A stretch of 64,000 nt of DNA from assembly GCA_947561715.1 (NCBI GenBank), contig OX387198.1:16430001-16494000 (forward strand). Reading direction: 5' to 3'. Positions 8,901 through 61,363 of the stretch are shown here, in pieces (position 1 is the first letter of the stretch; every line of letters starts with the position of its first letter). The notes below the pieces were generated by a model. It saw nothing but the letters and a program-made list of their open reading frames with translations, was not told the DNA's origin and did no database searches. Source of the stretch: Ascidia mentula (Eukaryota > Chordata > Ascidiacea > Phlebobranchia > Ascidiidae). The position numbers and the translations under genes were made by a program.

Positions 8901-9454
8901 CATAATGATCAGTTAGATATATTTGCTAACAAAATTTGTGATCGAGAACAATCTAAACAAGCAAAGCTAACACGCGATGCAGTCAGTGGAAAAAAATATC
9001 GTTTCAAACGTCGACTTCTTTCAGGAAACTTCTGAACTCCATAAGAAACAACAAGATTATCAACAGAAACAGGTGGCGATGACCAAAGAAGATGAAGAAC
9101 AATATTTTAACTACTGCTCCGAGGCTATGTTCCGAATCCATATTCTAGAACTTCGACTGAACAGGTGAGTCCAATATTATTACAGAAGACAGTGATAGAT
9201 AACGGCTAATCAAAAGCAGATCCGGTTGATCACAAGCAACAAAGTATATAACAGACGTTTTGTTGTTTAAATTACGTTTTGTAGCGGCCTAATTATTGAG
9301 GTTTTTTGGGGGAATTCGTGATAATCTTTCATGGTAGTTGATAAAGTTTGAGCTGTGTCGCCTTATTTGGAATTGTGAATTGAAAAAAACTATTTGTTGT
9401 ATTACGTTGTAGGGAAAATATTGTAAGCGTATAAAATGGTCAAAAATCGTAATT

Positions 9455-9527
9455 GGCCAGTACGGGGCTCGAACCCGCGACATTCGCGTTATTAGCACGA
9501 CGCTCTAACCAACTGAGCTAACCGGCC
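9455..9527 (-). tRNA. tRNA-Ile-AAT: tRNA-Ile (AAT anticodon), antisense in DRC7-A last intron
   Basis: A 73-nt cloverleaf. The acceptor GGCCGGT pairs with ACTGGCC through one G-U. The D arm is GCTC/GAGC, the anticodon stem TCGTG/CGCGA holds loop CTAATAA, and the T arm is GCGGG/CCCGT. The A box TAGCTCAGTTGG and B box GGTTCGAGCC are intact. The discriminator is A, and a T5 pol III terminator follows within about 12 nt. Confidence 0.93.
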
Positions 9528-10277
9528 GGACGCTTGTCATCACCAAATGCATAAGGTTGTTTGAGTTTATGTATGTAACGCCTTTCCTAATTCTTGATAA
9601 ATACTTCGTAATGTGTAATGTGAACAAATGTTTTTTTGCAGACATAAGCAGATGGCGCCGCACAAATACATGCAATTGGAACAAAAACTGAGACAAGATC
9701 CAAGGCTATCGCTTTATTTCTAATTCTTTTGTCGTTTTTTAAAGCGAAATGTTTTTGTAGACTGTTCACTGTTGTAATGAATAAATATTTTTATGATGGT
9801 CGTGCTAAAATGTTCAGAGATATTTTTGTGTTGCAATTTAAAAACAACTCGACTGCGATTGTTTTTTACTCATATAATTCACCACCGTGCGTGATCAAGT
9901 TCAAGATATTGCTACAAGACTGAACATTATTGTTCAAATATGTTTTTAATTTAAGCAACGACTGTTTATGACATACTTAACTCTCTTCTATGTAAACATA
10001 TCTATGTAAAAAATATATGACATGACCGGATATAACCGCACGTAAGCATAAAAATGTGTATATTGTGTTATGTTGGTCTTCAACACAAAACTAGGCAGTG
10101 GAACACCATAGTTGTCACATAAAACCGAATCGCCAATCAGGCACAAAAAATATCCCAACGTTATTGTGGCAGTGGTTTATGAACAACTACATATTAGTCT
10201 TTATCTCGTTGCAACGAAAAGCACACATATGGGAAAAAAGAGTAAAATTAATAAAATGTTCATACCTAATAAAAGCT

Positions 10278-10350
10278 GGCCAGTACGGGGCTCGAACCCG
10301 CGACATTAGCGTTATTAGCACGACGCTCTAACCAACTGACCAAACCGGCC
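10278..10350 (-). pseudogene. Degenerate tRNA-Ile copy downstream of DRC7-A
   Basis: Same family as the tRNA at 9455, but changes hit the D stem (GGTC against GAGC) and one pair of the anticodon stem (CGCTA). A short T run still follows. Probably not a functional tRNA. Confidence 0.7.
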
Positions 10351-10512
10351 GGACGCTCGTCATCAACAAATGCATGAGAACCTTGTTCGACTAACTGCAG
10401 GGCAGCACAGGACAATGTTTTACTTCTGTTTGAGGGCCTTTGTTGTCATATTTTCACATATATCTTTGTTGCCTTTTAACGAATAAAGAACAATTCTTAT
10501 TTCACGAGCAAT

Positions 10513-10556
10513 TAAGCCGGTAGCGGCGCACAACTGAAACAGAAACTAAAATAAAG
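10513..10556 (+). pseudogene. Relic of DRC7 final exon
   Basis: The bases GCGGCGCACAACTGAAACAG and flanks resemble the DRC7 last exon (GGCGCCGCACAAATACATGC, GGAACAAAAACTGAG). They lie about 170 bp past a tRNA-Ile copy, as the real last exon lies about 115 bp past its own. The better-preserved sister at 61311 shows the link clearly. Confidence 0.55.
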
Positions 10557-10882
10557 GCAGAAATTTGGAACCCCTTGTTATGAAAGTGCCATCGTATGAT
10601 GCTCGTCACAAGGTTAAATAATATGATAAAATAAATCAAATGAAACGCAGCAACACAGAGGGCAAAAACGTTTTATTTCTCTGTCGTCCTTATTTTCGGT
10701 TACACCTCGATGGCAACCCTGTTTATTGGGCAGTTTGTTAAATATTCGCTCATTTGCACGATTTGACATCAACATTTCGAAAACAAAAAAATTGTAACCA
10801 GGTTCAAAATGCCAGCAATTCGTGGAAAATAAGAACTCGTGGAAATAAGGTTGGTATGTATGTGCAGAAAAAGCCATAATAT

Positions 10883-11017
10883 TGGAGAGTTGCAGACAGA
10901 GTGTGCACACGCACTGTTTCGACCTGTAAGGTTTGACACACCACTGTCAACAGCTGCACTGATGAGACCTTACAGGTCGAAACAGTGCGTGTCCACACTC
11001 TGTCTGCAACTCGCCAA
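10883..11017. mobile_element. MITE-like foldback of the AGCTGCAGACAG family
   Basis: Nearly perfect 50-bp inverted arms (TTGGAGAGTTGCAGACAGAG ... its complement, then CGCCAA) surround a 31-bp core. A 12-bp direct repeat AAGGTTGGTATG flanks it at 10847-10858 and 11016-11027. The related site at about 48975 has this word once and no element, so the repeat looks like a target duplication. Confidence 0.7.
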
Positions 11018-11027
11018 GGTTGGTATG

Positions 11028-12065
11028 ATTTTTGGAACACAGAGGTTTTTTAGGGGTCAGATCGCGTGACAGAACACGACCAACTTCCACGAATTATTCT
11101 GCTCAGCTCCAGCTCAGCACAAAGACCTCAAGCGAAGATCGATAAAATGTCATGAAATCCCGTAATCTACAACTTTTCGATTGCACATAAGTTCTTTGTG
11201 ATGTTTAGATGATTTTGTTTAGTTTCTGAAATAAAGTTGTTGACCAATGATCAACACTAAAATTTTCATATTTAATTTTCATGATTTTGGGCAATTATTT
11301 CCAGTTCATGAAACGCACAGCAATATATCTTGTTCCAAAAAGTATAGTTTAATTGCAAATATATAAACTTTTAAATTAAAAATTCGTGCAGGTTCTTAAA
11401 TACTATCGTCATTGCCTGTTTGCTGCAAGGACAGCTGCAGGCTCTGGTTGATCATTAGCATCGATCGGTACTTTTCTGTTAAAACCGGTTCTTGACCTAA
11501 CCACATGAATTACTTTGTAATGAATAATAACATCGTGTGCAGACAACGTGAAGAATGGTCGTTAACAAAAATGACCAAAAGCGTTTCCAAATCAACCAAC
11601 TTCGGACAAAATACTTCGATCTTACAAGTCTCCAGACGAGTTGCACTTTTTGTTGCGGGTGTTGCGAAAAATATTGATGTAGAATGAATATGAAGATTTT
11701 TAGAATTTATAAAATTTTTGAAAATTGAATATTCTAAATATAATTGATAAAAAATAAGTAACCATACTTTTGTGATCGGATTGAAAGGTTGTGTTTTCTA
11801 TTTAAACGGGTAAACGTTACTTGCATAAAGCTCACCTTAAATATCGCTACAACAATGATATAGCAAATTGCTGTGTTTGTTTATTAAGCGGAGACTTTTT
11901 CACTGTATTTTCGCAACAAAATCGTTCTGACGTTGGGAGGTTGAACAAACACGGAAAAATCCCAAACGTAAAAATATAAAAATCTTTTTTACCAACGGAC
12001 GACAAAACTAGCGTACGGATTAATAAATAAAATGTTATTTTTCATTAGCGTCATTTAATTCAATC
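11028..12065. other. Intergenic region upstream of Reeler copy 1
   Basis: No gene seen. The stretch is AT-rich and matches 61827-62911, so it includes whatever promoter the Reeler genes share. No firm regulatory motif could be assigned. Confidence 0.5.
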
Positions 12066-12623
12066 ATGTTGCACTCTGCGTGGTTTATTGGGGCGTTGAC
12101 ACTTCTTGTAACAGTGGAGGGCAGAAGCAGGGGACCACCAAGATCATCTTGTGCTTCAATGAGGCCTTTGGGTCATCGTGGTGGAGGAAGGTATCCCGTC
12201 CTGCGTCACAAAATCGTTGCGGACTTGTTGTTCAGGCCGTCGATAATCTCCATAAAATTACGACTACGGACTAAATATACCAATGTACCGGATTTACTCC
12301 GCACAAATTAATTCAAACGAAATCATTGTTGTCCTGTTTTTCAGTCGAGGTTCATGGACCTGAAAAGTTCAAGGGTGTTTTCATTCAAGTACGCAAAGGA
12401 AATGCTGCAACATCTGTCGGAAAGTTTTCCAATCCTCCTCCCGGTTTTCAGCTCATGAGTTGTTTTTGTGGTCCACCCAACAGCGGATGTAATGACGCGT
12501 TCGGTCATAGCAACGGGGCATTTAAAGGAATGTCTGTGAAGGCGGAATGGACAGCTCCTGCCAACTGCAACGGCGACCATGTCATAATGTAAGAAATCTT
12601 ACGTTTAGTTTTAAAAATGACTT

Positions 12624-12755: not shown

Positions 12756-15700
12756 CCACCCCCTTTCAGAAACGTACAATGCGCAAAATAAGGAGACAAT
12801 TACACAACAAGATCATCGAAGCGCAGGAGGTCTAGGCGGTCTGCCTCTACGCGGTGGGCGCGCAACTGCGACCGGTTCCGTCAGGTCAACTTCTGCGGGT
12901 TTAAGCCGATCAACAGAAATTGTTGCATGGCGGCCGCCAAAATCCAAAACAAACGTTTTGTGAGAAGTCTCAACAACCTTGTAGGGACCCTCGTAAGGGG
13001 CTGTTAATGGGGGTCGATGAGTATCCTTCCGTACGAATACGTACTTCGCAGTTAACAGCTTCCTCGGAAGTGCGCTTCTTTTAGCACCGTGGCGAGACAT
13101 TAATATCGGAATCTGGCTTCTCACTGACTGTCGGAGTTGTGAAAGCAAATTTGCAACATTTGGTGTTGCAGCAATGTTGGGTGTGATGTCTCCCGGCACG
13201 GCGAGCGGTCCACCGTAAACCAGTTCGGCCGACGAAGTTTGTAAGTCTTCTTTGGGAGTTGTCCGGATGCCCAGAAGTACCCACGGTAAATGGTCAACCC
13301 AGTTAGCTGTTGACGTTGCGCGCGCCATAAGAGCGCTTTTCAAATGCCTGTGGAATCGTTCCACAAGGCCATTGGCCTGGGGATGAAAAGCAGTTGTTAG
13401 AGGCAGTTTAATACCGAGGAGCTTGTTAACAGCTGACCAGAGTTCGGAGGTAAACTGAGGTCCTCGATCCGACGTTAAATGTGTAGGAATGCCAAAGCGG
13501 GCAAGCCAAACGCTGATGAAAACTTTGGCGCAGGTCAAAGCTGTTGCATCCGGCATGATATGGCTTCTGGCCATCGTGTGACGCGGTCCATGACAGTGAA
13601 AAGATATGCGAAACCTTGGCACTGTGGCAGGGGACCCACTATGTCAACGTTTAAGTGAGTGAAACGTGCATGAACAAAAGGGTAGTCTTCAATCGGAGCG
13701 CGTACATGGCGTTGTACTTTGGAGCGTTGGCAAGAAAGACACTGCCGTGCCCAATTTCCTACATCTTTCTGCATTCCATGCCACACGTAACGTTGTGTAA
13801 TGAGCTTTTTAGTCCTCCTCACCGAGGGATGAGAAAGGTCATGCAGTGCATGGAAGACGTGTTTGCGCCATGCTGTCGGCACTACAGGTCGCGGTACACC
13901 AGTGGAGATGTCGCAAAGAATGTCGCAACCATTCTTTTCGAAATTAAGCACTTTAAAGTGGAGATTGGTTATCGACGATCGATAATCTGCCATTTCTTGC
14001 TCATTTGCTCGTTGTGCTGCAGAAAGAGATTTGGGATCAAACTGTGTTGCAGAAAGTTGGACCTCCGCTACTAAAGATCGGGAAAGCGCGTCAGCGACAT
14101 GATTCTGCTTGCCTGCGACATGCCGTACATCTGTGGTAAATTCTGATATGTAAGAAAGATGTCGTTGTTGACGACTCGACCAAGGATCGGAACATTTTGT
14201 GAAAGCAAATGTGAGCGGTTTGTGATCAGTGAAAACCGTAAACGTACGACCTTCAAGGAAATATCTGAAATGACGTACCGCCAAATACAAAGCCAGCAAC
14301 TCTCGATCGAATGCTCTGTACTTTGTTTCCGCTGGGCGAAGCTGTTTGCTGAAAAATGCCAAAGGTTTCCATTCGTCTTGAATAAATTGCTCAAGTACAG
14401 CCCCAACAGCTGTTTGCGACGCATCCACTGACAAAGCAGTGTCAGCCATTGCCTGAGGGTGGCTGAGAAGCGTGGCGGTTGCAAGCGCCTGTTTAGCTTG
14501 GAGAAACGCACGGTTGAGTTCATCAGTCCACATGACTTCTTTTTTCTTTGTCGCTATCGCTTTGTAAATGGGTGACATAATTCGTGCCGCAGATGGTATA
14601 AAGCGATGGTAAAAGTTTATCATCCCATTGAACTGGTGGAGGCCCGCTAGGGTCGTGGGTCGTAAAAATGCTTGAATGGCCTGTACTTTTGATTGCAAAG
14701 GCTTAGCTCCATTTTTGTCGACTCGGTGTCCGAGAAAGTCTATTTCCGTTAGACCGAAAGAGCACTTCGAAATGTTAATAATAAGTCCATGGTCGTTAAG
14801 CCTCTGAAATATTTGCCGAACATGCGTTACATGTAGGACTGCCGAGGAACTGGCGATTAAAATGTCATCCAAGTATACAAATGCAAATGGCAAATCCTGA
14901 CAGACAGAATCCATTAGACGTTGGAAAGTTTGCGCAGCGTTTTTTAAACCAAACGGCATGCGCAGAAACTCGAACAAACCAAACGGCGTTATCACTGCCG
15001 TTTTAGGAATGTCGGCGTCAGTTACAGGAACTTGATGGTACCCGCGAACTAAATCAATTTTAGAAAATACGCATGCACCTGATAGCTGAGCTGAGAAGTC
15101 CTGTATGTGTGGAATGGCGTACCGATCAGCTTGTGTCACCGCGTTTAAGCGCCTGTAGTCTCCACAGGGTCTCCAGCCACCGGACGCCTTAGGCACCATG
15201 TGCAAAGGTGAGGACCAGGGGCTTGATGAGCGACGGATTATTCCCATGGATAGCATTCGCTGGAATTCCTGTTTAGCAATCATCAACTTTTCCGGCGGCA
15301 GGCGTCGTGCTCGTGCATGCACTGGCGGGCCCGATGTGGAAATGTGGTGTTGTACTCCATGCTTTGGCCTCGTGGAAGAAAACTGTTCGTTGGTTAAACC
15401 AGAAAACTCATCAATGAGGTCGCGATACGTTGAATCAACTCCTGAAACGCAGGGTTTCAATGCACTATGTTCAGCCGTGCCAGTGCACAAACGGCGTCTT
15501 TTAAAATCCACACACATTCCCTTCGCTTTTAAAAAATCTGCTCCAAGCAGGGGTTTGGATACAGCGGCAACAGTGAAACTCCACGCAAATTTTCCACACG
15601 GCAGGTGCAGGAAAAGCTTTTTGGAACCGAACGTGCGTATGTTGGTTCCATTGGCTGCTTTGAGTGCCGAGGATTGGCTCTGGAAATGTCGTCTTTCATA

Positions 15701-16485
15701 GACCGTTGGCGGAATTACGCTGACTTCTGCACCGCTGTCTACTAAAAATCGGATTTTGAGTTTCGGTCAGAGACGAAAATGAGATTGCTTTGTCCGCCGG
15801 CCGTCGAAAATATTGAGGACGGCCGGCTTGGTCGTTTCCCTGATAGGCACATGGCTTGCGGCATGCTTTCGCCTTTGCACCAAAGCGTTGGTGGTAGTAG
15901 CAGAAATTGTCATTGGTTTGGCGTAGTGTTGGCCGTAATTTGGCAACTGCAAAGTTGCAGCTGTCTTCCCTGGCGTGCCATAACAAATCTGCCTTCTTTG
16001 CTAGAGACCGAAGATCTACAAAATCCTCTTTTGCCAGATTAATACGAATTTCTTCTGGCATTTGTTGGATAAACAAATATTCAAAAAGAAAGCAAGGTTT
16101 ATGTTGACCCAGCATTGCTAGCATTTCATCCATAATAACAGTAGGTTTACGATCCTCAGAACGGGGCATGTTTAGCAACTTAGACGCTCGTTCGTACCTT
16201 GACAGACCTAATGTATTAAGCAGTTCTTCCTTGAGCGATGCGTACTTGTCTTCTGCTGGTGGAGAATCAAGAAAATCAATGAAACGTTGGGCGGTATCCT
16301 GATCCAAAGCCGCCACCACGTAGAAGTACTCGGTTTGGTCATCTGAAATTCTTCGCAGTGCGAACTGTGCTTCAGCTTGCTTGAACCACACGCGGGGTTG
16401 TTTCACCCAAAATTGCGGTAACTTCAGAGCAACAGCGTGTTCTTCCATTTTATCAGCAGTCGTGCTTGATACTCGGGGTCACCAA

Positions 16486-17866: not shown

Positions 17867-19032
17867 GTAAAGGGTGACAGAGTAGAGAACGGGGAGAACT
17901 TCCTTCCTGTCTCTCTGCTACTCTTTCCGGTTAGGGAGACAGGAAAGAGCACTCTTTCCGTTCTCTTTCGTATGCATTTCAAAGGGGGACATGTGTCAGG
18001 GAGATACTCACAGTTACTCATGAGCCTTCCGGTCTTGATTGGGAGTAAAATAAGATTCTCCTATTGTTTGTCTCTTTCCGGTGTCGCAATCGTGATTCTA
18101 TTTTTATCTTGAGCGTGTGAACTTTGTTTGAGATGTCCTCGCCAAGGAATTCGGGATCACACGCAGTTCACTGTGAGGTCGTGTGGCGTTTGTGAAACTA
18201 TTTGGTAAATTGTTTCCTGAATGCAACCTGTTCCCAATGCCTTCACGATGACATCAGGCGAGATACGACGTGATCAACAAACAATTGTTTTTTTGATCAG
18301 CTGTTAATTGTATCCGCTAGCGAAAATTCAGCGTGCCTCGTTTTCAGAGCTCTTGAAAAGCATAAACAAACATAGACTTGGTACATCGTGCGTTCGTATT
18401 GCCCCTCGCTTCACCCTTGCCAATAAGTTGGATTTGCAAAGATGGGAGTATTTAGGGTCAAGGTCTTCGGTGACTTGAATACCCCAACATTGACCTGATT
18501 GCGTGTGGATTGTTTTCGAGCATGGAGCACTGACATGTTCGGGTAGGTATAGTTGCTATCTTTATCACAAGACCGATGTGTCGGATTTTTTGTCGATCGG
18601 CATGTTTTGTCGGACCACTTGTTCGACCTCTGTTTGAATCGACCCAGCAAACGTTACCTTAAAGTTTCTGGACTTTGCAGTCACATTACAGTTGCAGTAA
18701 TTACAATGGCGAACACGTCTCTTTTTGCTACGAAAGCAAAACGCTTTTGGGATTGGGCAACAAACCCCAACGTCTTGGTTAGATTTGACGTTTAATCGTT
18801 CAAGACTGTTGGATAACAGATCCTTGTAATATAATGAGCGATGGGTTTCGAATTTGAATCAATCGTGACGAGTGACATATCATAAAATGTGCCAATCGCA
18901 AACCTCCTGTCTGTAAATTCGATTGGTGGGCCACAAGATCTTAGGTGGCTGAGGTCGTGCATGGATTGTTAACATATATGGTATTGCTGTGTTTGTGTAG
19001 GTAAACGATCCTGAATGCAACCGGTTCCCAAT
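17867..19032. repeat. Left shoulder of the giant palindrome, extra module copy
   Basis: No gene. From about 18225 to 18800 it carries a diverged direct copy of the module starting AATGCCTTCACGATGACATC, seen again at 19033 and 19740-20070. The first 350 bp is a pyrimidine-rich stretch with repeated CTCTTTCCG words. Confidence 0.65.
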
Positions 19033-22000
19033 GCCTTCACGATGACATCACGCGACATGCGACGAGATCAACAAGCAATTGTTTGTCGATCAGTTGTTAA
19101 TTGTATCCGCTAGCGGAAACTCAGCGTGCCTGGTTTTAAGAGTTCTTGAAACGCACAAACATACAAAGACACGCTTTTGAGCTTGGGCAACAAACCTCAA
19201 CGTCTTGGTTAGATTTGACGTTTAATCGTTATTGCCCCTCGCTTGACCCTTGCCCATGAGTTGGATTTGCAATGTTGGGAGTATTCAGGGTCAAGGTCTT
19301 CGGTGACCTTGAATACCCCAACATTGACCAGATTGCGTGTGGATTGTTTTCGGGCATGGAGCACTGACATGTTCGTGTAGGTAGTTGCTATCACTATCAC
19401 AAGATCGATGTGTCTATCGCGGAGGGCTGCCCTCAACATGGATTCATAATTTTTATGACATCACGCTAGACATATCCTGTTTACGTTGACTGGTCGGATT
19501 TTCTGTCGATCGGCTTGTTTTGTCGGTTCACTTGTTACGCTTTTTTGCCACCCGTCATGTGTAACATGTACTCGTTAAAGTGATGTCCAGCTTTGATTAT
19601 CTTGCCACTTCAGGTGAAAAGATCGCTTACTTCGTGGTGTTTTCTCGCAGTCCAATGTGTCCTAACCCTGATGCAGTATGATTGATGTCATCATATTAAT
19701 GACATCGCACTAGCTGTGGTACCACCTATTCCAGGGTGACTGGTCGAACAATGTTTCGGTCGCGTGAAGCGCATCGTGAAACGTTGCTTTTCGGAACATC
19801 ATGCCTATCCAATGTTCAGATGTCGTGCAAGTCGTTTTTGCTGTATATTTGGACGTGCATCTTTTCCAAAATCATTTACTTGATTTACCGCGACCTCTGT
19901 TTGAATCGACCCAGCAAACGACACGTTAAAGTTTTTGGACTTTACAGTCACATTACAGTATGCAGTGAATACAGTGGCGAACACGTCTCTCTTTGCTACG
20001 AAAGCAAAACGCTTTTAAGCTTGGGCAACAAACCTCAACGTCTTGGTTAGATTTGACGTTTAATCGTCCAAGACTCCTGTCCGTAAATTCGATTGGTGTG
20101 CCACTAGATCTTAGGTGGCTGAGGTCGCGCATGGATTGTTAACATATAGTATTGCTGTGTTTAAGTAGGTAAACGATCTGTGTATCACAGGTCGAATGGT
20201 GTATCGCGACGGACGCTGTCTAAATGGATTTTAATGACATTACGCTGGTCACTTAGTTATTTTTTTGTTCGTCGTCATGTTTTGTCGGTCACTTGTTTCC
20301 TTTTTGCAAAATTCGGGACAAAATACTCATGTAACTATATGTACCAGGGATAGTTAGCATGCCACAGCGAATACGATCGAGAAGAAAACGTTCGATTTGG
20401 GTCGAGTTTTCGCAAAGTAGTTTGCATATAGTTGTCTTGCGATATTTTCCAAAGACAAAACAAAATCAGACGCCATTGATCAGTTATAGTAAAACTACGT
20501 ATTGGCCACCCTAAGGTGTAACATACATTCGTATACTGATGATGTCCAGATCTAGGCGGAATAACCAAGCGGTTTGGCATTGCAAAGTACACGAATCATC
20601 GTTTACATTGCCTGCTATTGGTCCTAATTATGTATCTTGTAACCTTACCCATGACATCAGCAAAACGAGAGGATTGATGTAATGCGTGGAGTTTTATGTG
20701 TCATTATTGAAGCTGTGTCTGTGACAATTGATATTCCACCTATGTTGCGCTTCTTGGTCGTAATTGTTCAGGAATGTGCTTAAAGTGCAACTAACATGGT
20801 CATAAAAAACTAATGGTTTATCCTGGAAATATGTTTATTGCGTAAAACTAATGGTTTATCCGCAATAAACATATTTCGAAAGTATTTCGGTGCTACGACC
20901 AAAAATCGTAAACCTGCGGCGACCAAAAATTGTAAACCTTTTGCGTTGTAGCGAAATTGACGCCACGTAAGGCGCTCGTGTCAAAACAATGCATTGTTTA
21001 CATAGGAGAAGGCACCTTATATTGCAGATATCGAATAGTTTCAAACATAGGAGAATCCACAAATTATGTTACCTCAAAGGTCGGGACAAGGTTTTACATC
21101 ATACAAAAATATGTCCCTGTGACGTCACAAATTCATCCGGAATCAAGTTGAACAATTATACGAATAATCGCTTGTATTGCTTGCGATATGTCCTATAATT
21201 ATGTTTTTTGTAACCTTATCGATGACATCCGCAAAACGAGCGGATTAAAGTAATGCGTTAAGCTCAGGTGTTATTTTTAACCACTGTGACAATTCATATC
21301 CCAACTTCTGTTGTTGCGTTTCTTGGTCGCAAATGTTCAGAAATACCCTTAAAAGTTTCTTTTCAATTAAGTGTCTTGCATCTGTGGTCGTGGCGTGCCA
21401 TATGGCAGGACTCTTGTCGATTCAAAGTGTAATTTATCGCATGAAATAAAGAGCATGCCGTACATTTTGTAATCAGTGCTATTACATAGTTTTAATGTGT
21501 GCAAGTGCCTGGGATATTCAAAAATATTTCAGGCCCTAAACATAATGTTTATGCTCTGCTTACGACCTGGTTGACAGTAGAAACGAAGTTTTTACGACGT
21601 TTGTTGGTATTTCCACAGTTTTTCGCGGCAGCAAACAAGTCAATTTAGTGTCGTCGTGGTGTGGGATTAATGTGTTGCAGCTTGCTTTACATATTTTCAA
21701 GCTTTTATAGCTGACGCTAATCGCGCACGCGGTTCACCATTAATTTAACGTCATGGTCGTGTAGTGTCGCTGTGGGTCCATCTGGTGAATTGTTTCCTAA
21801 TGCCTTCACGGTGACAATCCGCGAGAGGCGACGAGATCAACAAACAACTGTGTGTCGATCAGTTGTTAATTGTATCCGCTGGCGAAAATTCGGCATGCCT
21901 CGTTTTGAGAGTTCCCTCGTTGGTTATAAGGCACATACACACATACATACAAAGACTTCGGTACATCGTGCGTTTTTATTTCCCTTCGCTTGACTTTTCA

Positions 22001-28262: not shown

Positions 28263-28341
28263 AGGAATATGCTATAGGAGCTGAGGTCACAGCAGGAACC
28301 TGTTACGAGTTAGGTGTGTTCATAATCACATCGTACAAACC

Positions 28342-48990: not shown

Positions 48991-50042
48991 GGTTTTTGAA
49001 ACGTTTTTACGAAATTTTTGCCCGATTTGGTCAAAAAAACTTCGTTCCTTACTTCAACGCCTAAAAGTCGTGACGTAATAACCTACTTACAAATGCATGG
49101 CAGCTATGATGATCAGTTAGATATATTTGCTAACAAAATTTGTGATCGAGAACAATCAAAGCAAGCAAAACTAACACGCGATGCAGTCAGTGGAAAAAAA
49201 TTGCGTTTCAAACGTCGATTTCTTTCCGTTAACTTCTGAACTCCACAAGAAACAACAAGATTATCAACAGAAACAGGTGGCGATGACCAAAGAAGACGAA
49301 GAACAATATTTTAACTACTGCTCCGAGGCTATGTTCCGAATCCATATTCTAGAACTTCGACTGAACAGGTTGTGTCCAGTATTATTACAGAACACAGTGA
49401 TTGATAACCGCTAATAAAAAGCAGATCCGGATGATCACAAGCAACAAAGTATATAGCAGACGTTTTGTTGTCAAATTACGTTTTGTAGCAGCATAATTAT
49501 TGAGGTTTTTTTAGGGACCTCTTGATGATGATTCATGGTAGTGTATAAAGTTTGAGCTGTGTCGCCTTATTTGGAATTGTGAATTTAAATAAAAAAAAAC
49601 ATTTTTTCCATTACGTTGTTCGTAAAATATGGAAAGCGTTAAAAATGGTTAAAATCGTTACTGGCCAGTACGGGGCTCGAACCCGCGACATTCGCGTTAT
49701 TAGCACGACGCTCTAACCAACTGAGCTAACCGGCCGGACGCTCGTCGTCACCAAATGCGCAAGGTTGTTTGAGTTTACGTATGTAACGCCTTCCGCTTTG
49801 CTGATGAATGGTAAATACGTAATGTGTAATGTGAACAAATGTTTTTTTGCAGACATAAGCAGATGGCGCCGCACAAATACATGCAATTGGAACAAAAACT
49901 GAGACAAGATCCAAGGCTATCGCTTTATTTCTAATTCCTTTATCGTTTTTTGAAGCGAAATGTTTTTTGTAGACTGTTCACTGTTGTAATAAATAAATAT
50001 TTGTATGATGGTCGTACTGAAATGTTCAAAGATATTTTTGTG
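48991..50042 (+). pseudogene. DRC7 tail, copy C (last two exons only)
   Basis: Penultimate exon homologue about 49229-49368 and last exon 49853-49934, both still readable (KQQDYQQKQVAMTKEDEEQY; HKYMQLEQKLRQDPRL). The acceptor of the first is TTTCCG instead of CAG/TAG, and its donor is GTTGTG rather than GTGAGT. No upstream DRC7 exons precede it. It follows copy B in tandem, and homology stops at about 50042. Confidence 0.75.
49663..49735 (-). tRNA. tRNA-Ile-AAT: tRNA-Ile (AAT), in DRC7 tail copy C
   Basis: Intact 73-nt copy. The trailing sequence has T-rich words (ATTTTAACC) that could terminate pol III. Confidence 0.9.
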
Positions 50043-51293
50043 TCGTTAGTAGCTAAATGCACTTTCACATGAACCTTGGATATATTAGTGCCTAGTTTTC
50101 ATGTCTTCAACAATTCATACAAAAGAAGAGGTCGCATAAAAACAGGGATTATTACTAAAATATTTGTGCAATGCCGTGCAATGTTTATGTACCTGGCTTT
50201 TCAGTGGAATTGTACTAAAAAAGGTTATTTTATTCCCTGTAATGTTTGCTTTAAGTATTACAAGAATGTTTCTCACTGAGATCAACTTGATTCAGCGAAG
50301 ATCCAATAACCTAACCTGAAATCCAAAGTGACACGAATGGCGCTCGGGCTGGCTTAATCGACCGTTAAAGCGGATATTAGCTGGATATTATTGTTTAGTG
50401 AGGTCGCTTGTAGCAATAAACCTCATGTGAGTCTGTGACGTCGGTCAAGAACACCAATCGCGTCATTTATACTGATGATGACATAAGTTTTTGTCGAAAC
50501 GTCTTATTTTAAAATGATAGTGTTTATAACAATATGGGCCAGTCTCTTTATACTCAGAAGAACGAAAAAGTTTTTTAAAATGGCTATCCGCAGTGACGTA
50601 TCCACAACGTGATCAATTTCAAACGCAGAAGATGAAACAAAGCGTAGCGGCGGTTACGCCTGACAGTGTTTGTCTGTTACGCCCACCGCTTGTAATCGTC
50701 TTCCACACATTTTAGTTGAGCGCATGGGACTTGTCGTAGACTGCAGTGCATAGTAAGTAAGGCACGTATGGAATCTGAGGCCCATGCATGAAAGCTTGTA
50801 GAATAAAACTGGTTTAAATCGGCTAAAAGAAAGGACGAAATTTTTTTCAGACTGGTTTTAAAGCCAGCACTTTATAACAATACAATTAGCAAAATGCAAC
50901 TGTTAAAATTCGAACCGCAAAACAATAATTTTTAGTGAACGCTCAGTATATGCCTAGTTGATAATCAACGTCTGTTTCTCTTGGTTGTTAATGCTTTTAT
51001 GATTCGTGTGGGTGATGTAAAAGCAACACAGAGACAAGCTATAATTCTTTGCTACAATGCTAGTTGCGGAAGTACGTGACAAATTATTGTAACGTCACAC
51101 CCAACACAGTTGGCATATCACGAAGTTGCAACAAGTGCAGCTTACCGCGGAAACAGTGTTAAGAGCCTCAGTAACGTACAAATAGCCCCATGTTTCAGAT
51201 ACAACCACATTATTTTATTGTCACGATCTTTCAAAATTCAGCTTTTGTATGAATACTGAAATGGAAACCTCAATTTTTCTGTTGCAGATAAAC
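50043..51293. other. Non-coding region before the P450 gene
   Basis: No exon, tRNA or element clearly recognised. It includes the P450 upstream region. A possible 5'UTR intron acceptor (CTGTTGCAG) lies eight bases before the chosen ATG. Confidence 0.5.
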
Positions 51294-54119
51294 ATGATTG
51301 AATATCTGAGTTTCAATGGTGCTACTGCGTTTTTTGCTGTTGCATTGGGCCTTTTGTATTGGTATCGCAGACCTAAAAACATGCCACCTGGTCCCAGGGG
51401 AATACCTTTGTTAGGAGTTATCCCCTTTCGCGGTTCACATTTTGCAAATAAACTTGCGAAGTGGGGAAAGACATACGGTCCCATCATGTCGGTACGGTTT
51501 GGTCGACAGGATTGGATTGTTCTCAACAACTACGATGCCATAAACGAGGTAAAGTGCTCACAACTGTAGTGGTTCAAATCGGATGAAAACTTGTTTATTT
51601 TTCAGGCCTTGGTAAAGTGCCACGAATCCTTTTCTGGACGACCTAAAGTGCCGGTGATCGAAGTAATTTCACGTGGAAACGGAGTAATTCTCACCGATGG
51701 AAAGAAATGGAAAGCTCAACGAAAGTTTGGACTGATGACGCTTCGAGAGTAAGAATGTATTGTTGTAAAATAGGATATGCCTAAATGCATCAGTACGCTT
51801 TATGGTAAATCATGATAAAATATTTTCATGTATATGTTTTTATACCTTTATCATGAACACATAGGACAACTGTTATTCATGATAAAGGTATTAAAGGACA
51901 AATTATAGTGTATCAAAATTTCACCTCCAAGGAATTTATGTCATGGTTAAAACTAAAGTAAAAACACAGAATGTAAAAAAAACATTGATTTTGATTCGTT
52001 TTGAACACATTAAGTTGGTATTAAACGCAGCAAATTAATAACACTCACATAAACATTATACATAAAATGTTCAGTTTCGGAATGGGAAAACACAGCATGG
52101 AGGTTCGTGTTTTGGAAGAAGTCGAATATATGAACGAAGAAATAAGAAAACATCAAGGAAATCCATTTTTTATTAAAGTAAACAATTCTCAATGGTTTAT
52201 TCACGTATAAACTAAAGTTACGCCAACCAAAATAATTCGATCTTGGCAATAATTTAGAAACATAACTTTTACATTCCAGGAAATTTTGGAGAATACTGTT
52301 TCAAACGTGATATGCAAGGTTGTATTTGGAGTACGCTTCCACTATAACGACCCATGGTTTACAACTTTATTGCACATCATACAAAAATGGTGGGTAGCAT
52401 CGAGTAGAAGAAAATTTAATGTTCTTGATTTATTTGACCTCGAGTATTCGACTTTATTTTGAATTTCCAATATGCACAATTATTTACAGGTTGACAGACC
52501 CGAAAATGAGCGGTGTAATGGGTACCTTTGCATTTGCACCATGGTTGCAGTACATTCCACCTTTTTCCTGGTATATGAACAAACTTGTGGAGGACATCGC
52601 TTTTGAGACAAGTTAGTCGTATACTTTTGGGCCAAAAATGTTGGTTCCTGGGCATTCGAAATTCATGATAACAAGAGAGTTTTTTTCTGAGACTTCAGCG
52701 GTGGTTGTTTTAGTTGAATTTTGAAATAGTTGAAAAGACAAAAGCAAAACCAAAAATTACCACCATGTTACAAAACGTGGTTTTTTGGTATCATGCAATG
52801 TTGCAAAAAAATCCCTCTGGCAGAGGATGAAAAGGGCATGGTTAATTTTGATTTTACCGCAAATTTTACTATCATGGCGGCACAAAACTCTTTCGCAAGA
52901 ACGAATTTGTATTTAATTCAATGCAGGTGAATTTGAAAAGAAAGTGAAAGAGCACGAGGAAAATTTCCAGAAAGATGAGTTGCGTGATTTTATCGACGCT
53001 TTTCTTGTGGAGATGCGAGAGGGCAAGGATACTTTTACTGTGAGAATTTACACTTTGCTTTTGAAGTACTTGAATACGAGCCTCACTTAACAAATTGCTG
53101 CAAACTGGCTTTTTTGCAGCTTATGCAGCTGCTTCACTACATACGAGACTTGTTTGTGGCCGGCACTGAAACAACATCAAGTTCTCTTGCTTGGGCTGTT
53201 CTTTGTCTTGTTCATTATCCAGAAACACAGAAAAAGTTGTACAAAGAAATCATCAATGTTATTGGTACAGTTTACTCGTCAATTAATTATATGTTTACAT
53301 TTCTCAACGTATTTGAATTTACGCTGGCACGTCAATGCCATGTTTTCTTTAAATCACAAACAATTACAACTTTGTTCATATTTCCATGAATGCAAACGTT
53401 GCTATGTAACGTAAAATTACGTTACAGGTAGCATTTCATGTAAGTTATTTTGAATTTAGTGGTTTAAAGAAAACATGGCATTGACGTATTCCCTGCTGTG
53501 CAGAGGAGTGCAACAGATTGAAAATCTAATTGAACATTTCCAATTGTCCTAATAATTGTTGTGGCGCAGGAGAAAGTGTAAAACCTTCCATGTCATTGAA
53601 AGGCGACACGCCTTACGTATCTGCATTCATACAAGAACTTCAGAGATACCGTACGTTGCTTCCTTTAAGCGTACCTCATTCAACATCGAATAATACGAAC
53701 GTGGGAGAATTTCACATTCCGAAAGGCACTACAGTAAGATCGCATCCTAATAAACTTAAAAGCCATAATTCTATCCATGAAAACTACAGTCATCAATTCC
53801 ATTGCAGGTTATTCCGAATATCTGGGCTGTTCATAACGACCCAAACCTTTGGGACGAACCGGAAAAGTTCAAACCAGAGCGGCACTTGGACGCCGACGGT
53901 CGATTCGTCAAATCAAATTACGTCATACCGTTTTCAGTAGGACCACGACATTGCCTCGGAAAACTTTTGGCTCAAATTGAACTTTTTGCATTTTTGATTT
54001 CAATGGTTCAAAACTTCGAATTTTCATCGGCACCTGGAAATCTTCCTGATATTGATAAAGGCTCCAAAGGAACTGTGTTCTCACCGTATGCTTATGAAAT
54101 TGTAGCCAATGAAAGATAA
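51294..54119 (+). CDS. Cytochrome P450, CYP2-like
   Basis: Nine exons: 51294-51548, 51606-51748, 52075-52177, 52280-52389, 52490-52611, 52927-53039, 53120-53264, 53570-53733, 53808-54119. All have GT-AG introns and matching phases, and give 488 residues, a normal P450 length. An N-terminal membrane anchor ([12 protein letters not shown]) precedes the proline hinge [11 protein letters not shown]. The C helix (WKAQRKFG), I-helix AGTETTSS, ExxR (ELQR) and haem loop [10 protein letters not shown] with the axial Cys are all present. Exon 3 starts [12 protein letters not shown], as in vertebrate CYP2 exon 3. CYP2 enzymes are ER monooxygenases using NADPH-P450 reductase; the substrate cannot be told. 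I chose ATG 51294 because a likely acceptor precedes it; an in-frame ATG lies at 51249. AATAAA at 54428. It separates DRC7 tail copies C and D. It looks functional. Confidence 0.92.
51842..51891. repeat. Hairpin in P450 intron 2
   Basis: ATACCTTTATCATGAA and TTCATGATAAAGGTAT are exact complements around a 19-nt loop. Confidence 0.65.
53330..53486. mobile_element. Foldback element in P450 intron 7
   Basis: About 28-bp inverted ends (CGTCAATGCCATGTTTTC ... GAAAACATGGCATTGACG) bound 157 bp with a second palindrome inside (TGTAACGTAAAATTACGTTA, about 53405-53426). No coding. A small non-autonomous element is likely. Confidence 0.65.
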
Positions 54120-54885: not shown

Positions 54886-55395
54886 CGTGCCTCAGGGCTC
54901 AACTATTGGTCCGCTACTGTTTCCCATTTACATAAATGATAACGCAGTAATATTTCATGCAATGGCATGATTGCCCCACTGCGCAGGTCCTTGCTTGGCG
55001 ATCACAGCTATCGCGATCATTAGGTTTGCAGGCTTGGCAACCCAGGCATTGCAGCCAGCTGGATCAGCCACTTTTTTCCGACAAGTCGGAGCAAGATTTG
55101 AAAAATCAAGCTCCCGGTGAGGTTTGAACTCACGACCCTGGGCTAACCAGGCCCAACGCTCTACCAACTGAGCTAAGTGGTTTCACGGGGTATACTGTGG
55201 CCAAGGTACACTGGTGCGCAAACGCACAACTTGCCAGGCAACCTTCACATATACGTAGGGGATCTCTACCACCGTATCAGATAACGCAGTAATATTCCAT
55301 ACAATGGCATGATTGGCAGGATCGCCCCACTGCGCATAAATGATCTGCCAAATTAAAGCTCCTTCAACACAACATTTTTTGCAGATGATACACGT
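54886..55395 (+). mobile_element. Non-LTR retrotransposon (LINE) RT fragment, interrupted
   Basis: Two pieces, 54886-54940 and 55345-55395, encode SVPQGSTIGPLLFPIYIND and, after an in-frame stop three codons further on, FFADDT. These are hallmarks of jockey/CR1-type reverse transcriptases around the catalytic ADD. Another element sits between them, flanked by a duplicated CATAAATGAT. The fragment is joined directly to a truncated tRNA-Ile copy at 55402. Confidence 0.75.
54941..55334 (-). mobile_element. tRNA-derived SINE-like element with terminal direct repeats
   Basis: 394 bp inserted in the LINE with a perfect 10-bp target duplication CATAAATGAT (54931-54940, 55335-55344). On the minus strand about 55185-55112 is tRNA-like, with A box TAGCTCAGTTGG and B box AGTTCAAACC, but its acceptor ends do not pair. 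Both ends carry a related sequence of about 45-55 bp (CAGTGGGGC, CAATCATGCCATTG, AATATTACTGCG) in direct orientation, which is not usual for a SINE. Confidence 0.7.
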
Positions 55396-55401: not shown

Positions 55402-55467
55402 ACGGGGCTGGAACCCGCGACATTCGCGTTATTAGCACGACGCTCTAACCAACTGAGCTAACCGGCC
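55402..55467 (-). pseudogene. Truncated tRNA-Ile copy (DRC7 tail D)
   Basis: Matches the tRNA-Ile family but lacks the 3' acceptor strand and has a changed T loop (TTCCAGC). Its 3' end is replaced by LINE sequence. Confidence 0.75.
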
Positions 55468-55588
55468 GGACGGCCGTAAACACCGAACCCGTGAAATTGC
55501 TTGAGTTTATGTATGTAACCCCTTGATTTTTTCCTGTTTCTTGATAAATACTTAATAATGTGTAATGCGAACAAAGGTTTTTTTGCAG

Positions 55589-55686
55589 ACATAAGCAGAT
55601 GGCGCCGCACAAATACATGCAATTGGAACAGAAACTCCAATTTTTGAACAGAAAGACAAGATCCAAGGCTATCGCTTTATTTCTAA
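55589..55686 (+). pseudogene. DRC7 tail, copy D (last exon only)
   Basis: HKQMAPHKYMQLEQKL is kept after a TTTTGCAG acceptor. An insertion of about 16 bp then shifts the frame away from RQDPRL. No penultimate exon precedes it, because the LINE junction cuts it off. Confidence 0.7.
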
Positions 55687-56243
55687 TTCCTTCATCGTTT
55701 TTTGAAGCGAAATGTTTTTTGTAGACTGTTCACTGTTGTAATGAATAAATATTTTTGTAACGGTCGTGCTAAAATGTTCAGAGATATTTTTGTGTTGCAA
55801 TCTAAAAACAACTCGACTGTGATTGTTTTTTAGTCATATAATTCACCACCGAGCGTGATCAAGTTCAAGATATTGCTACAAGACTGAACATTATTGTTCA
55901 AATATGTTTTTTAATTTAAGCAGCGACTGTTTATGACGTACTTATCTCTCTTCTATGTAAACATATCTTTGTAAACAATATATGACATGACCGGATATAA
56001 CCGCACGAAAGCATAAAAATGTGTATATTGTATTATGTTTGGTCTTCAACACAAAACTAGGCAGTGGAACACCATAGTTGTCACATAAAACCGGATCGCC
56101 AATCAGGCACGAAAAATATCCCAACGTTATTGTGGCAGTGTTTTATAAGCAACTGCATATTGGTCTTTATCTCGTTGCAACGAAAAGCACACATATGGGA
56201 AAAAAGAGTAAAAGTAATAAAATGTTCATTCCCAATAAAAGCT

Positions 56244-56316
56244 GGCCAGTACGGGGCTCGAACCCGCGACATTCGCGTTATTAGCACGACGCTCTTACCA
56301 ACTGAGCTAACCGGCC
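56244..56316 (-). tRNA. tRNA-Ile-AAT: tRNA-Ile (AAT), downstream of DRC7 tail D
   Basis: 73-nt copy with one D-loop change (GGTAAGAGC for GGTTAGAGC). All stems are paired and TTTT follows. Confidence 0.85.
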
Positions 56317-56487
56317 GGACGACCGTCATCACCAAACACGTGAAAACCTTGTACGAGTAGCTGCAGGGCAGCACACGGCTTGATAAAAATTTTTACCTCT
56401 GTTTGTGTGCCTTTGTTTGCACCTTTGTGTTCAAGCATTTTTTTACATATATTGCCTTTCAACAAAAGGAGAATTCTTACTTTACAA

Positions 56488-56537
56488 ACATAAAGGCCGG
56501 TAGCGGCGCACAACTGGAACAGAAACTGAAGTAAAGG
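56488..56537 (+). pseudogene. Relic of DRC7 final exon
   Basis: ACATAAAGGCCGGTAGCGGC ... GGAACAGAAACTGAAG, beyond a tRNA-Ile, as at 10513, 48627 and 61311. Confidence 0.5.
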
Positions 56538-56837
56538 CAGAAATTTGGAATCGTCACAAGGCTAAATAATTTGATAAAATATATTTAAAAGATCATCTTG
56601 TTTTTACAAAACGTAGCAACACAGAGGGTAAAACGTTTTATTTCTCTGTCGTCCTTATCTTCGGTTACACCTCGATGGCAACCCTGTTTGTTGGTCAGTT
56701 TGTTAAATATTCGCTCATTTGCCCGATTTGACATCAACATTTCGAAAACAAAAAAATTTTAACCAGGTTCAAAATGCCAGCAATTCGTGGAAAATATGAA
56801 TTCGTGGAAATAAGGTTGGTATGGTTTTTCAAACGTT

Positions 56838-57880
56838 TTTAAGAGATTTTTGCCCGATTTGGTCAAAAAACTTCGTTTCTTACTTCAACGCCTAAAAGTC
56901 GTGACGTAATAACCTACTTACAAAAGCATGGCAGCCATAATGATCAGTTAGATATATTTGCAAACAAAATTTGTGGTCGAGAACAATCTAACCAAGCAAA
57001 ACTAACACGCGATGCAGTCAGTGGAAAAAATATCGTTTCAAACGTCGACTTCTTTCCGGAAACTTCTGAACTCCACAAGAAACAACAAGATTATCAACAG
57101 AAACAGGTGGCGATGACCAAAGAAGACGAAGAACAATATTTTAACTACTGCTCCGAGGCTATGTTCCGAATCCGTATTCTAGAACTTCGACTGAACAGGT
57201 GAGTCCAGTATTATTACAGAACACAGTGATTGATAACCGCTAATAAAAAGCAGATCCGGTTGATCACAAGCAAGAAAGTATATAGCAGACGTTTTGTTGT
57301 TAAGTTACGTTTTGTAGCAGCATTATTATTGAGGAATTTTTTAGGGAACTCTTGATGATGATTCATGGTAGTGTATAAAGTTTGAGCTGTGTCGCCTTAT
57401 TTGGAATTGTGAATTTAAATAAAAAAAAACATTTCTTCCATTACGTTGTTCGTAAAATATGGAAAGCGTTAAAAATGGTTAAAATCGTTACTGGCCAGTA
57501 CGGGGCTCGAACCGCGACATTCGCGTTATTAGCACGACGCTCTAACCAACTGAGCTAACCGGCCGGACGCTTGTCATCACCAAATGCGTAAGGTTGTTTG
57601 AGTTTACGTATGTAACGCCTTCCGCTTTGCTGATGAATGGCAAATACGTAATGCGTATTGCGAACAAATGTTTTTTTGCAGACACAAGCAGATGGCGCCG
57701 CACAAATACATGCAATTGGAACAAAAACTGAGACAAGATCCAAGGTTATCGCTTTATTTCTAATTCCTTTATTGTTTTTTAAAGCGAAAAGTTTTTTGTA
57801 GACTGTTCACTGTTGTAATGAATAAATATTTTTATGATGGTCGTGCTAAAATGTTCAAAGATGTAATTCACCGCCGTGCG
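56838..57880 (+). pseudogene. DRC7 tail, copy E (last two exons only)
   Basis: Penultimate exon homologue about 57059-57198 (donor GTGAGT kept) and last exon 57682-57763, both open. The acceptor before the first is TTTCCG, the same loss as in copy C, so C and E share a defective ancestor. It directly follows copy D. Confidence 0.75.
57493..57564 (-). pseudogene. tRNA-Ile copy with T-arm deletion (DRC7 tail E)
   Basis: 72 nt: one C is missing from the T stem, giving CGCGGTTCGAGCC. The rest is intact. Probably inactive. Confidence 0.7.
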
Positions 57881-58842: not shown

Positions 58843-60408
58843 ATGGTTTATTCGACCTGTTTTTATGTGGCCCTGACTCTACTGGCAAAAGTGGAGGGGA
58901 TGAACAATACGGAAATGTTCAACGCCACTGACGATTCCAATGCAACTTCCTGTGATGATATGATGACACACGTACCAGCAAGTGGGTATGTTAGGGTAAA
59001 GGAAGTGAAGAACAAATTGCTTTCTTCATTGTATGTTTGGGCCTCTTAATCCTATTAAAAAATTCTGAATGCAAAGCAAGTTTGAAAATATGCTATAGCC
59101 AAAACTTGCTAATTCGATACCATGCAAAATACCATGGTCAATTTTTTCTCCAAAACCAGCAGAAATTCTTATAAAAGGTTGATATATCTGGAGTGCAATC
59201 CATACGAAGATATGAAGAAGTAAATACTCATAAATATGCTTTATGTTTCGACAATCCAAAAGTTGAAAAACTCAACACAACATTACAAATTTATTCACCG
59301 GTGTAAATTGCTGTTTTTTTAGAATACAACACTAGCTTTGAAGTTCTGTGGAGCTTTGAAGGTCAGGGGAGTTGGATTAACACAGGCGACAAATACTGGA
59401 GTCGAATATATGACTCAACACCAACTTTTGGAACTGGGCCAATTGCAGCCGAACATGGTAACAACGACGCAAGGAAATTCAGATTCATGCACTATCCCAT
59501 GAGTGTTGTAAAAGAGTGCCTGGCATCAGCGTGTTATAATTTATTTGGTTCGGGTTGACACTCTTATATTTGGTTGAATATCAGTGAAAATGTGTTTACA
59601 AAAATGTACTAAATAACATATATCAATGCCCACATTACTTTGGATTCATATAATGCCGATCTATATGTACTTATTCTTTTTTCCATATAAAGCTTCAAAA
59701 CAAATATTTACCATTGAAATAGAACTTAGTTTAAATTTTAGGAACGTTTTATCTTTACACGGAGGCATCAAACGTTGACTCTGGTACTCAATTTGTTCTG
59801 GAAACTGTCGGAGAATTAGTCGGATGTTTTTGTTTTCACTTTCTGCAACAACACAACGTGGTTAATGACGGGATGCCACATCACATATTCCATGTGTTCG
59901 TTAATGAAGAGAAAAAGTTGGAAATTGTCAACGAAACTTCAGTGTGGAAACGTTATCACATTCAAGTGAAATCGGTCGAACCTGTGAAGGTACGCGAGTG
60001 TCTCTGCTTGTTCACTGTCTGTAATTGATGGCATTCATCGAGATTCGGAATAAATATTTATGTTTGGCGATAATTAAATGTGTAGACTTGCGATATAACA
60101 AAGAAAAAGGGAAAAAATAAACAACTTCTTTCGGAAATTTGTTAATTAATATACTTTATGGGACCTTTTTCGCCACATTGGTATTCGAGGACAAAATATC
60201 GTGGTCACAAATTCCGGTCGGATTTTCTTCTCATGCTGGGTCCTCTAATCCACCGTGCGACTAATACGGTTTACGGTGATCAATTTTTGTTAATGCCCGT
60301 TTTTTTTAGATCAAGCTTGTTGGTATCCGTGGAGTGAACATCATGGGTGATATGGCAGTTGATGACTTGTTTTTCACCCCAGGAAAATGCCCAGATTATG
60401 AGAATTAA
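58843..60408 (+). CDS. MAM-domain secreted protein
   Basis: Four exons (58843-58985, 59336-59457, 59742-59989, 60310-60408) give 203 residues. Residues 1-19 are a signal peptide (MVYSTCFYVALTLLAKVEG), then a short linker with NNT and NAT glycosylation sites ending DDMMTHVPASG. A MAM domain follows (WSFEGQGSW; TGPIAAEHG; YLYTEAS; CFCFHF; IRGVNIMGDMAVDDLFFTPGKC). MAM domains are extracellular adhesion modules. Exon 2 must start at CACTAG|C, because the earlier TTTTAG acceptor gives the wrong phase and an immediate stop. The signal peptide and HVPxSG linker match the Reeler genes next door, pointing to exon shuffling. It looks complete. Confidence 0.85.
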
Positions 60409-61076
60409 CGACTGATCCTGATGTAAAAAAATTATAAGACCTAACAGTTTATTATGTTTAAATATTACTACGTAATAATATAAGGATCTTTTTGAAGTTA
60501 TTATTTCTTATGTCCACGTCAGCTGAATTTCCAACTATATTAAAATTAAATTCCAGTCAATGTCAGGATATGTGAATTGTAGAATGTGTCATCAAATGGA
60601 AATATTTGTTGAGCTTCTTTAAGCAACGATTGTTTATTAAATACATTATGTACCGGTCACAAACTCTTCTATGTAAACATATCTATGTAAACAATATATC
60701 GTATGACCGGATATAACCGCACCAAATATTCTCATCGAAGAAGCAATAGCGAAATCATAAAAATGTGTATATTGTGTTATGTTTGGTCTACAACACAGAA
60801 TTAAGCAGTGGAACACCACAGTTGTCACATAAAACCCAATCGCCAATCAGGCATGGAAAAACTCTTCTGAACGACGCCCTTACAGCTTTTCTGTAATACA
60901 GACATGGAGCAAAATTGAACGGAATTGTCAAATGTCAATCACTGCTGGTCTAAATAAAAGTTATTGTGGCAGTGTTTTATGAGCAACTACAAATTGGTCT
61001 TTATCTCGTTGCAACAAAAAGCACACATATGGGAAAAAGATTAAAAGTAACAAAATATTCGTTGCTAATAAAAGCT
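60409..61076. other. MAM gene 3' flank joining DRC7-type flank
   Basis: From about 60610 it resembles the DRC7 3' flank (9950-10277), with a private insertion of about 100 bp at 60857-60960. No gene. Confidence 0.6.
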
Positions 61077-61149
61077 GGCCAGTACGGGGCTCGAACCCGC
61101 GACATTCGCGTTATTAGCACGACGCTCTAACCAACTGAGCTAACCGGCC
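61077..61149 (-). tRNA. tRNA-Ile-AAT: tRNA-Ile (AAT), upstream of Reeler copy 2
   Basis: Intact 73-nt copy, identical in its stems to 9455-9527, with TTTT following. Confidence 0.92.
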
Positions 61150-61310
61150 GGACGCTCGTCATCACCAAATGCATGAGAAGCTTGTTCGACTAACTGCAGG
61201 GCAGCATAGGACAATGTTTTACTTCTGTTTGAGGGCCTTTGTTGTCATATTTTCACATATATCTTTGTTGCCTTTTAACGAATAAAGAACAATTCTTATT
61301 TCACAAGCAA

Positions 61311-61363
61311 TTAAGCCGGTAGCGGCGCACAAATACATGCAACTGGAACAGAAACTGAAGTAA
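61311..61363 (+). pseudogene. Best-preserved relic of DRC7 final exon
   Basis: GCGGCGCACAAATACATGCA, then ACTGGAACAGAAACTGAAG, aligns with the true last exon (CGCCGCACAAATACATGCAA). It lies about 160 bp past a tRNA-Ile and explains the shorter relics at 10513, 48627 and 56488. Confidence 0.7.

Follow-up and report, generated by a model that had tools for sequence, protein, structure and literature searches.

We analysed a 64,000-nt stretch of the Ascidia mentula genome (C2:16430001-16494000, hereafter the window) and searched the genome assembly (196 Mb, 79 contigs) for related sequences. The window holds nine copies of a tRNA-Ile(AAU) gene, all on the minus strand, and each lies beside the last exon, or a relic of the last exon, of the gene for Dynein regulatory complex subunit 7 (DRC7). 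The best explanation, to which we assign a probability of roughly 0.8, is that an antisense intronic tRNA gene has hitchhiked in segmental duplications of DRC7 sequence and has been kept uniform by selection and/or gene conversion.

The history would have started with a tRNA-Ile(AAU) gene located on the opposite strand within the last intron of DRC7 (site A). When the tRNA and the last exon were duplicated locally, long ago, they would have given rise to site B, some 0.8 kb further downstream. Unequal exchange, which we infer as the mechanism together with this order of events, would then have repeatedly duplicated both the stretch with the two sites (~2.06 kb) and larger blocks (~38 kb) across C2:16.05-16.49 Mb, hereafter the DRC7 cluster. 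The tRNAs would be passengers that, once copied, were mostly held at or near identity by gene conversion and/or purifying selection, and surplus DRC7 exons would tend to decay or lose splice sites.

The tRNA-Ile(AAU) copies and their DRC7 host

ARAGORN predicted eight tRNA-Ile(aat) genes in the window, all on the minus strand, and cmscan with the Rfam models recovered the same eight plus a partial copy at 55402, all nine scoring above the Rfam cut-off. A canonical cloverleaf with this anticodon was reported by ARAGORN for eight of the nine. Five copies are identical over 74 nt: those at 9454-9527, 47566-47639 and 49662-49735 (site A, the last in a partial cassette) and at 48378-48451 and 61076-61149 (site B). 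The site B copy at 56243-56316 carries one substitution, and that at 10277-10350 carries three and has a lower cmscan score (43.7 bits). At site A, the copy at 57492-57564 has a 1-nt deletion (52 bits, cmscan), and the copy at 55402-55467 is a 66-nt relic without the last 8 nt at its 3' end. The original prediction, made from the sequence letters, had reported nine minus-strand copies beside DRC7 last exons or relics, and this observation is confirmed: all nine sites are real, with eight of the nine starts placed one base off, and its count of six intact copies is fair. Its division into five copies at or in a DRC7 last intron (site A) and four beside a decayed last exon (site B) was also right.

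The host gene is firmly assigned to DRC7 by sequence matches. Its exon pieces match PF24671 and PF24667, and the frame 8439-8879 matches the PDB chains 9fqr and 8j07, both Dynein regulatory complex subunit 7; within it, 8595-8705 on the plus strand matches positions 2-38 of the DRC7_C profile. In the first DRC7 copy of the window (copy 1), profile searches placed the penultimate exon at 9025-9164 and the last coding exon, with its stop, at 9642-9723, both on the plus strand. The tRNA at 9454-9527 lies between the exon ends 9164 and 9642 on the opposite strand, with GT/AG borders, and is thus flanked by two coding exons as an intronic (nested) antisense gene. The corresponding plus-strand matches of copy 2 are at 47091-47285 and 47750-47824. 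Partial cassettes have penultimate- and last-exon matches at 49232-49372 and 49848-49925 and at 57056-57208 and 57677-57754 (plus strand), the splice acceptor of the penultimate exon being changed in both; beside the truncated tRNA, a last-exon region at 55497-55703 (plus strand) is 83% identical to copy 1 and gives no profile match.

Site B, represented in copy 1 by the tRNA at 10277-10350, is best read as an old, decayed duplicate of the tRNA and last exon in which the tRNA has stayed mostly intact. The cluster, read in pieces, gave 23 tRNA-Ile copies (12 at site A and 11 at site B; the listed copies 16066878 and 16194335 are outside this set). A search with a profile of the site A exon, which in its final form took all 11 B copies (an earlier one took 10 of the 11), found a collinear last-exon relic to the right of the tRNA in 10 of them (7.7-38.2 bits) and none in one. 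As controls, 440 shuffled flanks gave seven matches of at least 5 bits (best 8.9), and 76 unrelated chunks gave one (best 5.8). Within the window, the relics beside the copies at 61076 (38.2 bits; 61287-61358, plus strand, 79%) and 56243 (13.6 bits) score above the controls. Those beside 48378 (8.9 bits) and 10277 (8.7 bits) do not and rest on their collinear position, as do in total four of the 10 relics, whose scores do not exceed that of the best shuffle. To the left of the tRNA, a comparison of 8 A with 10 B copies found no similarity between the two sites, and therefore the left border of the old duplication can be placed no more precisely than within ~320 bp of the tRNA.

Duplicated blocks and genome-wide distribution

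The tRNAs lie in collinear direct repeats. Comparison of the window with itself showed that 8348-10858 matches 46467-48991 (89%), 47574-50033 matches 55402-57862 (92%), and 10157-12623 matches 60957-63734 (about 90%); the repeat blocks that span tRNAs measure 0.4-2.6 kb at 76-92% identity, which exceeds chance similarity. They are enclosed by a larger duplication, which runs to the window edge and whose two copies are offset by ~38 kb (in the first 2.5 kb, by 32 kb). A unit of ~2.06 kb carries both tRNAs, with 8800-10858 as the reference and 46913-48991 as the unit in the second large copy. An A half-unit (49003-50043) stands in tandem with the latter unit, the block 55402-57862 repeats a truncated A, a B and an A at an offset of about 7828, and a B half-unit with downstream sequence follows at 60618-63734, in three pieces matching 9950-12623; all of these are on the plus strand. 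The unit junction, from 10833 or 10858 to 8799-8802, head to tail with 10-20 nt between, recurs at six places in the stretches examined. Collinear direct blocks with common junctions identify these as tandem segmental duplications, and because the copies are direct repeats all cluster tRNAs that were read (23 of 23) lie on the minus strand.

Other sequence was also seen in the window. Among retrotransposon frames (Gypsy-like by eye), that at 2949-5009 matches that at 41132-42943 across the 38-kb duplication; the frame at 12813-16478 is absent from the corresponding place near 63731 and therefore postdates the duplication or was lost there. Cytochrome P450 exons lie between the DRC7 cassettes (51186-54119), and Reeler and thrombospondin domains were also seen in the window.

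Genome-wide, all 25 DRC7_C (PF24671) matches fall within the cluster, which also holds four sets of MORN_DRC7 exons, and a tRNA-Ile lies 105-120 nt upstream of each of the 11 DRC7 last exons found by the family search. Co-duplication of the tRNA and the last exon, as originally proposed, is supported by these 11 pairs and by the collinear blocks of tRNA, intron and last exon. The proposed cassette of 0.8-2 kb agrees with the ~2.06-kb unit at its upper end; this unit, however, holds two tRNAs and is nested in larger duplications. The original interpretation as a whole is partly supported.

The same tRNA also occurs without DRC7. At least three single genes, on C69, C67 and at C2:8.79M, are identical to it over 74 nt and have just 76-92 nt in common with the window. 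On C67, an array (10190001-10250000) with a unit of ~1088 bp carrying tRNA Glu(TTC), Gly(GCC), Phe(GAA) and Ile(AAT) holds 48 Ile(aat) genes in the 60 kb read, within which no array end was seen; the best-scored of its copies have 2 nt different from the C2 sequence (97%). In the genome search 40 of 147 candidates were scored, and its counts are lower bounds. Dense high-scoring tRNA matches, on one strand and many of them about 303 bp apart, were also observed at C70:14198953-14222728.

Such copies on other contigs would be expected if a tRNA-derived mobile element, like a short interspersed nuclear element (SINE), had inserted repeatedly beside DRC7, and the genome does have a dispersed repeat with a tRNA-like part (window 55041-55289). 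That repeat is, however, a different sequence, the C2 copies are homologous far beyond the tRNA, the three single copies elsewhere share little besides it, and each insertion would need the same intron position and strand. We therefore regard the mobile-element origin as highly improbable. The single copies on C69, C67 and at C2:8.79M do not share a body outside the tRNA, as copies of a tRNA-derived SINE would; the original prediction had named dispersal without DRC7 as a SINE-like family as the contrary case, and the tRNA does occur elsewhere without DRC7, as single genes and an array that are not SINE-like. For the dispersed repeat of the window, with its tRNA-like part at 55117-55175, 40 of 2398 candidates were scored; they are spread over several contigs and frequently form tandem copies spaced 366 bp.

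Other repeats were noted in the window. A nested inverted repeat at 18289-28267, with arms of up to 1157 nt at 97% identity, contains two similar 115-aa frames on opposite strands. A satellite of ~190 bp with alternating copies (35363-38506) adjoins a 20-bp repeat (38441-39704), inside which ARAGORN called a tRNA-Pro at 39295 that did not appear in the Rfam scan.

Constraint on the tRNA and decay of the exons

The tRNA is less variable than its surroundings at both sites. Among the 12 A copies, 3 of 74 tRNA sites vary, versus 40 of 105 in the 112 nt next to it (Fisher 3e-8); among the 11 B copies 4 of 74 vary, versus 61 of 103 in the flank (1e-14). In this form the test takes in all copies; the alignments used for other purposes were smaller. 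The B alignment, without 16411607 and 16412148 (nine of 11 copies), has 5 of 74 variable tRNA sites versus 149 of 566 in the B flanks. The A alignment, used for the flank trees, exon rates and sliding congruence, has eight of the 12 copies, leaving out a chimera (16063533), a copy with a short left flank (16163691), one with a nine-base insertion (16188651) and the truncated one (16485402); its zero variable tRNA sites are flattering because all four omitted copies have tRNA changes. Over 74 nt, 15 of the 23 cluster copies are identical (7/12 at A, 8/11 at B).

A T-run just downstream, serving as RNA polymerase III (Pol III) terminator, is a feature of functional eukaryotic tRNA genes. A TTTT run starts at +2 to +8 past the tRNA 3' end in 22 of the 23 copies, the exception being the truncated copy at 55402. 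With both the terminator and the sequence constraint in place, the tRNA-Ile(AAU) gene at site A is very probably functional and presumably expressed. The uniformity of the copies would result from purifying selection and/or gene conversion, which are inseparable here.

At site B the tRNA has plainly survived longer than the exon, with 8 of 11 tRNAs identical beside an exon that is a relic in 10 copies and was not found in one. Site A is mixed in this respect: the A copies 16413431 and 16479662 have a perfect tRNA beside a damaged exon. The acceptor of the penultimate exon is changed in three of four partial cassettes (16413431, which has a stop in addition, and the pair 16479662 and 16487492 with a common lesion); 16190757, the fourth, appears undamaged. 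A role of the partial cassettes as alternative last exons is not favoured because of these three changed acceptors, one of them accompanied by a stop. Like the tRNA, the coding exons are conserved. In the four near-full copies, meaning those with the MORN and C-terminal parts, the last two exons show a nonsynonymous divergence (pN) of 0.0/1072 and a synonymous divergence (pS) of 10.0/242 (0.041), as sums over six pairs, and an intron divergence of 0.114. Copy 1 has a frameshift in the second MORN exon relative to copy 2. A genome profile search for the N-terminal peptidase-like domain (PF24656, CEPT76_peptidase) gave no match in the DRC7 cluster; its matches were confined to C52:15004710-15005870 and C1:1800997-1801383, and the C52 match, tried in two reading frames as a DRC7 N-terminal part, gave no PDB match. 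The N-terminal part of DRC7 is therefore missing, diverged or elsewhere.

The duplications could also have been fixed by selection for tRNA-Ile dosage, with the DRC7 exons as the passengers. This is suggested by the 15 identical tRNAs beside many cassette exons that are damaged or relics; however, near-full DRC7 genes were duplicated too, and with the large C67 array of the same isoacceptor (though 2 nt different where scored best) 20-odd extra copies seem a minor gain. We consider dosage selection unlikely as the driver. Like the proposal, discussed below, that the tRNA itself causes amplification, it may act alongside the preferred explanation, and the confidences given to the readings need not sum to one.

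Several points weigh against passenger tRNAs that are retained as surplus exons decay. Two A copies, 16188651 with its 9-nt insertion and 57492 (16487492) with its deletion, have a damaged tRNA and a readable last exon, so that the tRNAs do not always outlast the exons. Divergence is still small in the exons of the four partial cassettes (pN 0.0085, pS 0.066, intron 0.087), and the check for intact frames covered the last two exons and, in copies 1 and 2, a single MORN exon. The trees of left and right flanks are poorly congruent, which points to a reticulate history.

Probable exchange among copies and comparison with known tRNA families

A check by separate trees of tRNA, exon and flank, proposed with the original prediction, could be carried through in part: the tRNA is too invariant for a tree, and distances of the left and right flanks across it correlate weakly (Mantel r 0.15-0.24, p 0.098-0.21, four comparisons). 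Since the blocks stay collinear, we read the flank discordance as later exchange among copies. Such exchange is likely and would be general, because left and right flanks correlate poorly throughout the region; the tRNA may possibly have a special role in it.

The original prediction also suggested that tRNA genes perhaps promote recombination or replication stalling. On such a reading the tRNA genes would cause the amplification, with their 74 nt of perfect identity, or conflict between Pol III and replication, making them the exchange points between copies. Two junctions do lie at a tRNA. The copy at C2:16063533 is a chimera of a site B left flank and a site A right flank, with the switch in the tRNA or in the ~23-nt stretch beside it that A and B have in common, and the copy at 55402 starts within the tRNA, adjoining unrelated sequence (by eye a reverse-transcriptase fragment of a long interspersed nuclear element). 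By eye, several 5' flanks are also mosaic-like over ~28 nt: the A copies 16188651, 16485402 and partly 16408719 are B-like, and the B copies 16440277 and 16491076 are A-like. One substitution is common to the A copy 16163691 and the B copy 16486243, and two breaks, 10390 and 10221, come as near to tRNA B as 40 and 56 bp. The correlation between left and right flanks also drops around the tRNA, to 0.10 at 9454 and -0.02 at 9514.

The junction and congruence data as a whole did not bear this claim out. The recurrent unit junction, seen six times, keeps a distance of about 480-510 bp to tRNA B and of 654 bp to tRNA A. Other breakpoints likewise fall outside the tRNA: the deletion 9260|9790 and the breaks 9341, 9370-9376, 9831, 10390|8027, 8401|10221, 10804|11376 and 10808|11016. 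Congruence is low throughout the A region (r between -0.16 and 0.49), with its minimum at 9654-9674, outside the tRNA, and exchange can equally be sustained by flanks that are some 90% identical over hundreds of bases. Exchange between neighbouring A and B copies left no signal in the 28-nt flanks (10 of 11 B copies), in which neighbours are no closer than distant copies (mean divergence 0.230 vs 0.226, permutation p 0.20). The loci outside the window were cut around tRNAs, which biases towards junctions there and makes a fair count of any junction excess impossible. As a breakpoint hotspot, the tRNA showed no specific excess in junction mapping or sliding congruence, despite the dip, and we hold it improbable that the tRNA genes caused the amplification.

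We entertain, with much the same doubt, a narrower role: the 74-bp tRNA, kept identical by selection, would act as a lasting short exchange tract between A and B, allowing conversion and occasional crossover by which last exons of the host are reshuffled. The chimera at C2:16063533, the truncation at 55402 and the mosaic 5' flanks are the basis for this suggestion.

Intronic tRNA genes are numerous in Caenorhabditis elegans, for which one study reports that 44-47% of tRNAs are intronic, a share equal to chance expectation, and that 56% of the intronic ones are in host orientation (PMC4999229). Pol III occupancy was higher there for opposite-strand than for same-strand intronic tRNAs, and a host promoter influenced at least one of them (PMC4999229). 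The DRC7 cluster is similar in having tRNA genes within introns of a Pol II gene, on either strand in the worm; unlike in Caenorhabditis, a single tRNA-host pair has here been amplified to more than 20 copies within one cluster.

tRNA families are described as evolving in concert with local copying (PMC4981973), and the local, near-identical copies with some pseudogenes seen here resemble such concerted or birth-death families, whereas the DRC7-cluster tRNAs ride on duplications of a protein-coding locus and each flank is traceable. The tRNA arrays of Entamoeba (PMC2652664) are likewise direct tandem repeats with tRNA genes; the C67 array is the closer match to them, the DRC7 cluster being irregular, interrupted and not homogeneous. 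For tDNA clusters, described as dynamic and unstable, local DNA duplication has been named the prime suspect (PMC2888827). The DRC7 cluster is like them in its source by local duplication, and has no demonstrable breakpoint excess at the tRNA. A literature search, at the level of listings, showed no apparent report of DRC7 copies with tRNA genes, and nothing usable emerged from a search on tRNA arrays of Daphnia or tunicates.

As a discovery the finding is modest, since each of its elements is familiar, from tRNA genes in introns and segmental duplication to the uniformity of tRNA copies; it is a good example with many copies of one pair. The cluster offers a natural test bed, with more than 20 copies of one tRNA gene whose flanks are individually traceable, and therefore selection, gene conversion and decay would be separable for a tRNA family. 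Comparison between copies could likewise address any influence that such an antisense tRNA in an intron has on its host gene.

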